Positions 4,072-33,017 of a stretch of DNA of 37,417 nt are shown here, one piece after another. The stretch is from NCBI GenBank assembly GCA_001874255.1, contig MPDC01000035.1:1-37417 (forward strand), in the 5' to 3' direction. A program made the translations under genes and the position numbers. The notes beneath the pieces are model-generated. The model had not been told where the DNA came from, did no database searches, and worked only from the letters and a program-made list of their open reading frames with translations. Source of the DNA: Alphaproteobacteria bacterium MedPE-SWcel (GTDB lineage Bacteria > Pseudomonadota > Alphaproteobacteria > Rhodobacterales > Rhodobacteraceae). Position 1 is the stretch's first letter; each line of letters opens with the position of its first letter.

Positions 4072-4133
4072 CGCCTTGCTCAGATCGGCGCTTGAACTTT
4101 GCCGGGTCCGGGGTCACATCTTGGGTCCGACAC

Positions 4134-4320
4134 CCAGTCCGGATTGATAGCCAGTCCGGTTTGATAGCCAGCCCGGTTTGATACCCAGCCCGGTTCGATA
4201 GCCAGCCCGGTTTGATACCCAGCCCGGTTTGATACCCAGCCCGGTTCGATAGCCAGTCCGGTCCGCAACCCTGTCCGATGCCAAAGCCTGTCCGATCCCA
4301 AAGCCTGTCCGATCCGAAAG
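4134..4320. repeat. 17-bp tandem array upstream of ygfZ-like gene, eleven units
   Basis: Eleven head-to-tail 17-bp units in unbroken register. Units 1-7 (4134-4252) follow CCAGYCCGGWTYGATAS; examples are CCAGCCCGGTTTGATAC and CCAGCCCGGTTCGATAG, which alternate. Unit 8 (4253-4269) is transitional. Units 9-11 (4270-4320) follow CCTGTCCGATSCSAAAG. The last unit runs into the AAGGAAG ribosome binding site and the ATG at 4331. A frame is open through it on the minus strand only because 51 bp equals three units; I do not consider it coding. There are no spacers, so it is not CRISPR. Confidence 0.92.
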
Positions 4321-6013: not shown

Positions 6014-6041
6014 AAACCCCGGCACCGGAGTGTCGGGGTTT
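6014..6041 (-). terminator. Rho-independent terminator of efp
   Basis: A 12-bp stem (AAACCCCGGCAC at 6014-6025, GTGTCGGGGTTT at 6030-6041, one G-T wobble) closes a CGGA loop. Read on the minus strand it is followed by TTTTCTC, so it faces efp, about 100 bp past its stop. Confidence 0.8.
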
Positions 6042-6083
6042 GAAAACGGCGCGGCGCTGAACCGTTTCAGATCCACGCCCGGA

Positions 6084-6158
6084 TCAGGTGCGTTCCGGTC
6101 AGGTGCGCTCGGGTCAGGCCAGTCTGGATCAGGCCAGTCTGGATCAGGCCCGTTCGGA
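6084..6158 (-). repeat. 15-bp in-frame tandem array of the efp 3' end with five stops
   Basis: Five adjacent 15-bp units on the minus strand, each ending in TGA in the efp frame. The first (6144-6158) is the real end of the gene, coding Ser-Glu-Arg-Ala-stop. The next two (6129-6143, 6114-6128) are TCCAGACTGGCCTGA or close to it, and the last two (6099-6113, 6084-6098) read CCSGARCGCACCTGA. The stop triplets start exactly 15 bp apart (plus-strand TCA at 6084, 6099, 6114, 6129, 6144). Confidence 0.92.
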
Positions 6159-6707
6159 ATATTCCATGGTCTCTGTATTCACCACGATCATCTCATCCTG
6201 GCCGACAAAGGGCGGCACCATGACCTTTACACCGTTGTCGAGGATCGCAGGCTTGAAGGAATTCGCAGCTGTCTGCCCCTTCACCACCGGTTCCGTCTCA
6301 ACGATCTTGCAGGTGACCTTCTGGGGGACCGTCGCGTTCAGCGCCTCGGCATCGTAGAATTCCACGACAATCGTCATCCCGTCCTGAAGGAACGGCCGCC
6401 GGTCGCCCAGCAGCTCTGCCGGGAGTTCGATCTGTTCGTAGGTTTCGGTGTCCATGAACACCAACATGCCGTCGCTCTCATAGAGGAACTGTTGATCCTT
6501 CTGCTCCAGACGCACACGTTCGACTTTGTCGGCAGAGCGGAAGCGTTCGTTCAGCTTGGACCCATTTCGCAAATTCCGCATCTCGACCTGGGCAAAGGCC
6601 CCGCCCTTGCCGGGTTTCACATGGTCGACCTTGACCGCGGCCCAAAGTCCGTCGTTGTGCTCCAGAACGTTACCGGGGCGGATCTCATTGCCATTGATCT
6701 TGGGCAT
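6144..6707 (-). CDS. efp: Translation elongation factor P
   Basis: A 187-residue EF-P, the usual length, which binds between the ribosomal P and E sites and relieves stalling at consecutive prolines. The N-terminal KOW-like domain carries the loop [10 protein letters not shown] with Lys34 at the tip, the position that is modified (for example beta-lysylated) in bacteria with a Lys-type EF-P. Two OB-type domains follow, ending in the conserved [16 protein letters not shown] and EYSERA. The ATG at 6707 is preceded by GAAAGAG. No modification enzyme gene (epmA, epmB) is in the window. The gene stands alone, with its own promoter candidate and terminator. Its final 15 bases are repeated four more times downstream. 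Confidence 0.96.
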
Positions 6708-9227: not shown

Positions 9228-10553
9228 TCAGATCAGATCTTGCGCTGCAAGTGCCCGTTGGATTTCGCGCCGCACCAGCTTGCGCACATTTCGGGTGATC
9301 CGCTCTCCCAGCGGGCCCTGCAGCTCTTCTCGAACGATATCTGCAACCAGATCCCGCAGGCTGTCCTCATCAAGGAACCCGTCCTCCGCATCCAGCGCCT
9401 CAAGAGCGACATCTTCCGCCGCCCCTTGCGCAAGGGCCTGCGCGTTCTCCAGCGTCCGGTCATCCTCCGTCGCGGTCGCGGCAGAACCGTCGCCAGCCGA
9501 AACGTGGTCTTCCCACTGGATGGTCTCGACGGCAGGTCCGCTGGGCGGGACTGCTTCGATTTCATCCTCGTTCAATTCCGGCACCTTGGGCCCGGCCTGC
9601 GGCTCTGGGCGCTTGGACGCCTCCGCCCGCTCAGCCGTTTCCAGCTCCGCAATTCTACGCACGACAGCTGCCACGCGCGAGAGCTGTTCGTGTGGCTCTT
9701 TGGCGTCTTCCACAGGCTCTGCGCTCGCCCTCCCCGAAGCCGAGTGCCCGCCCCCATGGTCAGCAGAGGTCTGCGCCCTGCTGCCCTCAGTTCGCGCAGC
9801 ATCATACAGCCGAGCGCTGGGATCCCGCCACGGCGCCTCATCGGCGACAGCTTGATCTTCCGAAACGGCTTCCGGTTGCTGTGAATTCTCACTCTCTGTC
9901 TGAGCAGGCTTCGCGTCTTCGGGCTTCGCCTGAGTGGGGTCGGGCCTGGCGTGCAGGTCATGGATTGTTGCAGCCTGCTGCTCGGCGTCCACCGGTGCGC
10001 CTCGCAGGCTCCATGTCCCAGAAGTCGATGTGCCAGAATTTAATGTGCCCGAATTCAATGACGTTTCAGGCGATGGGGGGCTCTGTTCACCTGACGCAGG
10101 CCCGCTGACATCGTCGACGTCCACAGCCTCGGCAGGCCGTTTGGCCATCAAAATCCGCGGCTGGTCCCGAGATGCAGGTTCGCGCCCTGAGGCTTCTGTC
10201 GGGGGTCCGGGCAAGGGCCCGTCAGCGGCGTCGGTTCCGTCCCGCGCATCCGGCGCATTCGGCGCATCATCGGTCGAAACGATCCGTCCCGCCTTGTCGT
10301 CTGACACGATCGGTTCCGCCTCCGAAGGCCTGCTCCGGGACGGCAACTCCACCGGCGACGTCGCTGAGGACGCCTCTGATGGCTCGTCCCGCGCGGGCAC
10401 CCGCAGGGCCGGCGTCAGCACCAGACGCGTGCTGGGTTGGGCCGATGCTTTGGTTGCGCTGGTGTCGCCGTCAGCCCGGCCCGTCTCACTCACGAGACGA
10501 CGGATGGATGACAAGACATCTTCGATTTCTGCATGCGTAACGGGTTCAGACAT
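9228..10553 (-). CDS. popZ: PopZ-like polar organizing protein (DUF2497-type ends), long acidic linker
   Basis: A 441-residue protein with the three-part plan of PopZ, the protein that forms a cell-pole matrix and anchors the chromosome origin in Caulobacter. A short N-terminal helix AEIEDVLSSIRRLVSE corresponds to the EEILASIRRIISE-type start of that family. The middle (about 30-370) is very rich in Pro, Ala, Glu, Asp, Ser and Thr and looks unstructured. The last 60 residues (EDSLRDLVADIVREELQ then ERITRNVRKLVRREI) resemble the C-terminal oligomerisation helices. Synteny supports it: pcm, tolC, DUF2497 is the order I recall in many alphaproteobacteria, there often followed by valS, which is missing here. 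It is far longer than Caulobacter PopZ (177 residues). Assignment rests on ends and order, not on full alignment. Confidence 0.62.
   Translation of the reverse strand: MSEPVTHAEIEDVLSSIRRLVSETGRADGDTSATKASAQPSTRLVLTPALRVPARDEPSEASSATSPVELPSRSRPSEAEPIVSDDKAGRIVSTDDAPNAPDARDGTDAADGPLPGPPTEASGREPASRDQPRILMAKRPAEAVDVDDVSGPASGEQSPPSPETSLNSGTLNSGTSTSGTWSLRGAPVDAEQQAATIHDLHARPDPTQAKPEDAKPAQTESENSQQPEAVSEDQAVADEAPWRDPSARLYDAARTEGSRAQTSADHGGGHSASGRASAEPVEDAKEPHEQLSRVAAVVRRIAELETAERAEASKRPEPQAGPKVPELNEDEIEAVPPSGPAVETIQWEDHVSAGDGSAATATEDDRTLENAQALAQGAAEDVALEALDAEDGFLDEDSLRDLVADIVREELQGPLGERITRNVRKLVRREIQRALAAQDLI
10015..10059 (-). repeat. 15-bp tandem repeat inside the popZ-like linker
   Basis: Three 15-bp units (10015-10029, 10030-10044, 10045-10059; for example GTGCCAGAATTTAAT on the plus strand) encode the five-residue repeat LNSGT, LNSGT, STSGT in the disordered linker. 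Confidence 0.85.
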
Positions 10554-10628
10554 TTTGTTTGGCCAAGCTCACCTCTTGCGGCAAGCTTAGCCAGCTTGCA
10601 CCGTTCACACAACAGTAACCTAGAATTC

Positions 10629-32888: not shown

Positions 32889-32891
32889 CTG

Positions 32892-33017
32892 TCTGACTTG
32901 CTGCTGTCTGACTTGCGGCCGGTCTGCCTTGCGGCCGGCCTGACATGCTCCGGCCTGACTTGCTCCACTTGCTCCACTTGCTCCGGCCTGACTTACCGCC
33001 GACCTGACATGCCGACG
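32892..33017. repeat. 15-16-bp degenerate tandem array between gcrA and the YHS gene
   Basis: Units built on CTGACTTGCTCCGGC. Seen in order: CTGACTTGCTGCTGT, CTGACTTGCGGCCGGT, CTGCCTTGCGGCCGGC, CTGACATGCTCCGGC, CTGACTTGCTCCA with two more 9-bp CTTGCTCCR pieces, CTGACTTACCGCCGAC and CTGACATGCCGACGGC. It starts right after the gcrA terminator and ends about 35 bp before the stop of the left-facing YHS gene. Confidence 0.88.

Follow-up and report, generated by a model that had tools for sequence, protein, structure and literature searches.

A fivefold in-frame repeat of the efp gene end in a lineage rich in short tandem arrays

The gene for elongation factor P (efp) of Alphaproteobacteria bacterium MedPE-SWcel ends in five head-to-tail copies of its own last 15 bases, and we consider this array very probably a small minisatellite, grown by neutral slippage in a lineage where short tandem duplications abound. 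It is one of many, as intergenic arrays in this genome (G000) and in that of its sister species in the same genus (G010) are about 14 times as dense as in other sampled members of the genus, an excess that is confined to these two among the sampled genomes. The stretch of DNA from which the analysis started, called the window throughout, is 37,417 nucleotides long.

Results

The efp open reading frame (Pfam EFP_N, EFP and Elong-fact-P_C) lies on the reverse strand at 6144..6707 and terminates with TGA at 6146-6144. On the same strand, the array occupies 6084..6158, its first unit being the 3' end of efp itself (6158-6144), followed by four further 15-bp units at 6143-6129, 6128-6114, 6113-6099 and 6098-6084. 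Read from 6158 down to 6084, the units are TCCGAACGGGCCTGA, TCCAGACTGGCCTGA (twice), CCCGAGCGCACCTGA and CCGGAACGCACCTGA, and each of the five is closed by a TGA in the efp frame. Bases 15 positions apart match at 48 of 60 places, the maximum for the entire window, whereas 200 dinucleotide shuffles of the window never exceeded 35. The head-to-tail copies are thus well above chance, and the initial annotation, made from the letters of the window, was right in describing five in-frame copies of the efp end with five TGAs. Its description of the divergence among units as wobble-like needs a small correction, as 8 of the 15 unit columns vary (1, 3, 4, 5, 6, 8, 9 and 10), while columns 2, 7, 11 and 12 are invariant besides the three of the TGA. 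Since these four columns are unchanged as well, and since random placement of eight variable columns among 15 leaves the TGA columns without variation with p = 0.08, the intactness of all five TGAs is weak evidence for stop function. Beyond the array, a 45-base stretch (6039..6083, reverse strand), equal in length to the distance from stop to stem in G010, leads to the stem-loop of the intrinsic terminator of efp (6017..6038, reverse strand; 6031-6016 by the terminator scan), whose stem is likewise found in G010.

To place the array among related gene ends, we used a collection of 61 genomes, one per species, 18 of them from the genus; efp is present in 59 of the 61 (17 of 18 within the genus), and its 3' end was inspected at 30 loci. 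The array is missing from all 16 other efp ends of the genus, whose stops are TGA or TAA, and in G010 and the other same-genus efp ends the unit is local sequence present as a single copy. G010 is the nearest relative (94.3% identity in efp DNA), and its terminator stem begins 45 bases after the stop, compared to 105 bases in G000, that is, 45 plus the 60 bases of four units. The exact match in length of the 45-base stretch may reflect insertion of the four units alone, although it is suggestive only, given that 21 of its 45 bases are identical between G000 and G010 in an ungapped comparison. A second collection comprised the best 80 of 588 efp matches, at least three of which duplicate genomes of the first (L124 = G008, L153 = G001 and L150 = G028). 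Among these best 80 of 588 loci there was no 15-bp array at the efp end; weak repeats (6, 7, 11 and 11 bp) lie near it in four of them, and the 80 loci together hold 18 intergenic arrays in 194 kb. Two genomes of the first collection have repeats of their own close to the efp stop: in the more distant G023 (L030), an out-of-frame 17-base unit occurs about twice at the efp end, and the same-genus G009 has a two-copy 12-bp repeat shortly after the stop, separate from the G000 array, that yields two in-frame TGAs. At the efp locus of an uncultured Roseicyclus (L151, efp 10001-10561), a second efp-like gene end (GAATATTCCGAGCGCGCC followed by TAA) lies within about 50 bases of the efp stop, looking as if the tail of the gene had been exchanged for that of another species and this end had stayed behind.

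In a 37-kb syntenic block, we projected 11 array rows of G000 and 8 of G010 onto the other genome, and for none of them did we find a partner array with the same unit. At three unalignable intervals (around window positions 589, 10013 and 13140) both genomes have arrays with unlike units, possibly shared array sites that have been rewritten; elsewhere in the block the counterpart place is empty, except for a weak two-copy repeat beside one G010 array. Six array sites were additionally aligned base by base. In this alignment, the downstream part of an array of 17-bp units at 4132..4320, between an ABC transporter gene and a GCV_T/CAF17-like (ygfZ-type) gene, grew from a unit that is single in G010: the last unit lies beside the ribosome-binding site, and G010 has one copy and no array there. 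Likewise, an array of ~15-bp units at 32891..32994 that adjoins a terminator-like hairpin (identified by eye) faces no array at the matching place in G010.

At the efp stop, the word TCCG occurs twice, 15 bp apart, in G010 and G009, and this pair is a possible seed for slippage. At an ancestral efp end in single copy, such a short direct repeat could allow the strand being replicated to pair again one unit further back, which would duplicate the last 15 bases of efp; later rounds would add copies until four more units (60 bp) were in place, moving the terminator further off and leaving the EF-P protein untouched. The five in-frame TGAs would then follow from a repeated unit that includes the stop and whose length is, by chance, 15 bp. 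We infer these steps, as well as their neutrality and a raised duplication rate in the lineage. Two points speak against this reading: the TCCG pair is present at only 2 of 30 efp loci, and the units have a bias for CAG/CTG, described below, which simple slippage does not predict.

The efp array belongs to a genome-wide class, and the window does not stand out from other sampled stretches. Arrays were called with Tandem Repeats Finder on sampled stretches, and genes with a home-made codon-score caller. The intergenic arrays of G000 and G010, mostly with units of 10-18 bp, number 94 in the 434 kb sampled from G000 (1476 per Mb of intergenic DNA) and 55 in the 400 kb sampled from G010 (1029 per Mb), compared to 13 in 183 kb of intergenic DNA (71 per Mb) in the other same-genus genomes (n=15; 57-200 kb sampled from each, on contigs known from earlier hits, G014 lying outside the sample). 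Shuffled sequence gave 0-4 arrays per set. The G000 totals are inflated, as nine of its 20 stretches were chosen because BLAST or a pattern had hit there, while the remaining eleven come from contigs with such hits. A G000 subset that drops those nine and keeps the window still has 973 intergenic arrays per Mb, their number being 34 or 35 with different training sets of the gene caller. When the window is left out along with the hit-chosen stretches, the G000 count is 43 arrays of any kind over 220 kb, or 195 per Mb, next to 190 per Mb in G010. Arrays of at least four copies occur at 51 per Mb in the G000 subset, 12 in G010 and 1.3 in a pool of 17 further genomes (15 same-genus, two from elsewhere). 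Under a strict satellite criterion modelled on the definition in the portion of PMC6749651 used here, the densities fall to 3.9 (G000 subset), 2.5 (G010) and 0.6 (others) per Mb, with 9.2 for the whole G000 sample; by this criterion the G000 genome is not extreme, and the low values imply that the excess consists chiefly of short, degenerate arrays. That the efp array might be a single chance event, as the initial annotation had also considered, is thus at odds with the data: it is absent at efp in relatives, yet the genome has a strong enrichment of arrays at other places.

Array density also depends on the orientation of the flanking genes, being highest between convergent genes (2995 per Mb in G000, 2575 in G010), intermediate between tandem genes (1405 and 847) and lowest between divergent genes (859 and 199). 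This gradient fits neutral accumulation away from promoters, with persistence where arrays are least harmful.

The units share compositional traits. CAG/CTG is more frequent in them than the intergenic background predicts (43 vs 24.6 in the G000 subset, 72 vs 41.9 in G010), and six-mers such as CCAGTC are enriched in the units of both genomes. Hairpin-driven slippage was considered and discarded, as three units in a row fold no better than intergenic controls matched for GC content: their longest stems average 2.71 vs 3.51 in the G000 subset (p = 0.03) and 3.00 vs 3.42 in G010 (p = 0.08), and their folding energies are weaker, not significantly so (p = 0.19 and 0.14, respectively). A primer- or strand-linked origin was set aside as well, CTG and CAG having no clear bias for the G-rich strand (70 vs 57 in G000, 34 vs 38 in G010). 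Searching whole genomes for triples of the word CCTGA in phase gave 40 matches in G000, 19 in G010 and 0-4 in each of 16 other genomes. We rejected a special role of this word: its triples exceed those of the reversed word 40 to 8 in G000 and 19 to 1 in G010, and its sites in sampled intergenic DNA and at stops exceed those of the reversed word 333 to 63 and 232 to 68, so that the excess of triples is about matched by site number in G000 and less so in G010 (the comparison is made by ratios, as Fisher tests set whole-genome matches against sites from sampled stretches only).

These traits bear on the possibility that the arrays form a dispersed satellite family, with units copied between sites by transposition or gene conversion and sharing a CTGGCCTGAYCC-like unit. 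With the efp array as query, BLAST matched arrays at C24, at C2 and in G015; these matches, the appearance of the sequences concerned and the six-mers enriched in both genomes all lend themselves to such a reading. We regard it as unlikely, however, since all-against-all similarity of units is barely above that of shuffled units (mean best score 5.19 vs 4.77), with pairs scoring at least 10 numbering 3 vs 2 of 700 in G000, 8 vs 2 of 551 in the subset and 3 vs 0 of 700 in G010 (units vs shuffled). The tracking of CCTGA triples with site numbers, close in G000 and looser in G010, points the same way, and local sequence gave rise to both the efp unit and the downstream portion of the ygfZ-side array.

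Five intact in-frame stops could instead be a fail-safe array, in which the additional TGAs would halt ribosomes that had passed the efp stop by readthrough; this was the second of two explanations offered by the initial annotation, the first being neutral slippage. Beyond the five undegraded TGAs themselves, two observations favour it: in the 25 codons past the efp stop, stops number 17 in the efp frame vs 2 and 10 in the other frames (3' flanks L002-L013, L015, L017, L018 and L020, from 16 same-genus relatives that are non-independent, with kinship uncorrected), and the separate 12-bp repeat of G009 again places two TGAs in frame. Were the stops selected, the periods of arrays at gene ends would be expected to be multiples of 3. 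While coding arrays keep frame (periods that are multiples of 3 in 34 of 37 in G000 and 18 of 21 in G010, 52 of 58 together), intergenic periods show no frame preference (36 of 94 and 21 of 55, 57 of 149 together), and arrays that span a gene's 3' end have such periods in 5 of 13 cases (3 of 4 in G000, 2 of 9 in G010). Merging the CCTGA matches of G000 and G010 yielded 36 arrays (22 and 14), all of which were classed: 12 start exactly at the gene's own stop, 17 lie in the 3' region, one is coding and six are elsewhere, although for three of these six no gene was called upstream in the short context. The 12 of 36 that start at a stop somewhat exceed the 18% predicted from CCTGA sites (one-sided p = 0.02), a null whose site count is inflated by the array copies. 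Yet these stop-anchored arrays have periods of 13, 14, 15 or 16, and 4 of the 12 are in frame (spacings only 15), which is the chance level. One orthologous gene has stop-anchored arrays in both genomes, spaced 14, 14, 9 and 14 in G000 (the later spacings read by eye) and 13 in G010. Given the 4 of 12 in frame and this discordant pair, frame is not kept at the stop-anchored arrays of G000 and G010, and periods of this kind speak against the stop function that had been proposed. The pair (L274 and L065) encodes a protein with a SPOR-like C-terminal part, named by eye, and the C-terminal parts of the two proteins are 83% identical over 305 aligned positions.

The out-of-frame 17-base repeat of G023, the lack of the efp array in all 16 same-genus relatives and of any 15-bp array among the best 80 of 588 loci further count against a fail-safe role, as does PMC6764699, which reports that evidence for eubacterial selection of additional stops is not compelling. 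Of the two original explanations, neutral slippage is therefore the one that is supported; the fail-safe array, mostly unsupported in view of its absence in relatives and the frame counts, strikes us as very improbable in spite of the G009 repeat and the stop counts.

Equally small is the probability we give to regulatory or protein-binding arrays selected in 3' regions. The peak of density between convergent genes, the many CCTGA arrays in 3' regions and the CAG/CTG bias common to the units would suit such a role, but across the compared syntenic block the two genomes have no array of the same unit in common, the periods are arbitrary and the units have no excess of hairpins. An assembly or sequencing artefact, conceivable for a draft in 54 contigs, can practically be dismissed, as the copies have drifted apart, two separate genomes contain arrays and those in coding sequence preserve the reading frame.

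Loss of repair genes was rejected as the cause of the arrays: polA, mutS, mutL, recJ, recG and dnaQ, six replication and repair families, all score above the cut-off without internal stops in both G000 and G010. In G014 (67% complete), polA and mutL were not found, recG fell below the cut-off and mutS was in two pieces. The 5'-nuclease domain of Pol I has nine residues that are unique to G000 and G010 (polA L234 and L236) when compared to ten same-genus genomes, and its identity to G009 is 88% vs 95% for the polymerase domain. These changes are a candidate cause, to be taken as a lead and not as evidence, since by eye the domain's conserved motifs seem intact and the G000/G010 pair has a long branch in efp as well. 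It is conceivable, at somewhat less than an even chance, that the common ancestor of G000 and G010 gained a defect or activity that produces tandem duplications of 10-18 bp, preferentially in sequence containing CAG/CTG, still works independently in both lineages and writes intergenic and gene-end arrays to the density seen here, the Pol I 5'-nuclease changes being a candidate for it.

Discussion

Extra in-frame stops past the true stop are known as tandem or additional stop codons, yeast being a case in point. The efp array resembles them in providing further in-frame stops downstream of the true one; unlike them, it owes its stops to duplication of a gene end, and they are not conserved. Mutants in flap processing (yeast rad27, E. 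coli polA) accumulate short tandem duplications between short direct repeats, and the duplications seen here are of similar size; unlike in those mutants, polA is full length and open in this case.

Minisatellites made by slippage are a known kind of sequence. With their short tandem units, the arrays described here are akin to bacterial minisatellites or VNTR loci and to the prokaryote satellites with units of 10-30 bp treated in PMC6749651, where, in the part drawn on, some satellites are thought to arise locally as errors of DNA duplication and some species are far richer in them than others. Unlike prokaryote satellites, the G000 arrays are short, degenerate and mostly intergenic, with an excess limited to two sister genomes among those sampled. 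The strict-criterion density of G000 (subset or whole sample) also stays below the 23 satellites per Mb of the richest bacterial replicon in the table of PMC6749651. In a limited literature search, we found no earlier description of a strong array excess in one pair of sister species.

Taken together, the five stops themselves matter little. Their array illustrates that a striking run of in-frame stops can arise without need of selection, and an array excess in two sister genomes whose close relatives are unaffected opens the way to a comparative search for the genetic basis of short tandem duplication in bacteria.
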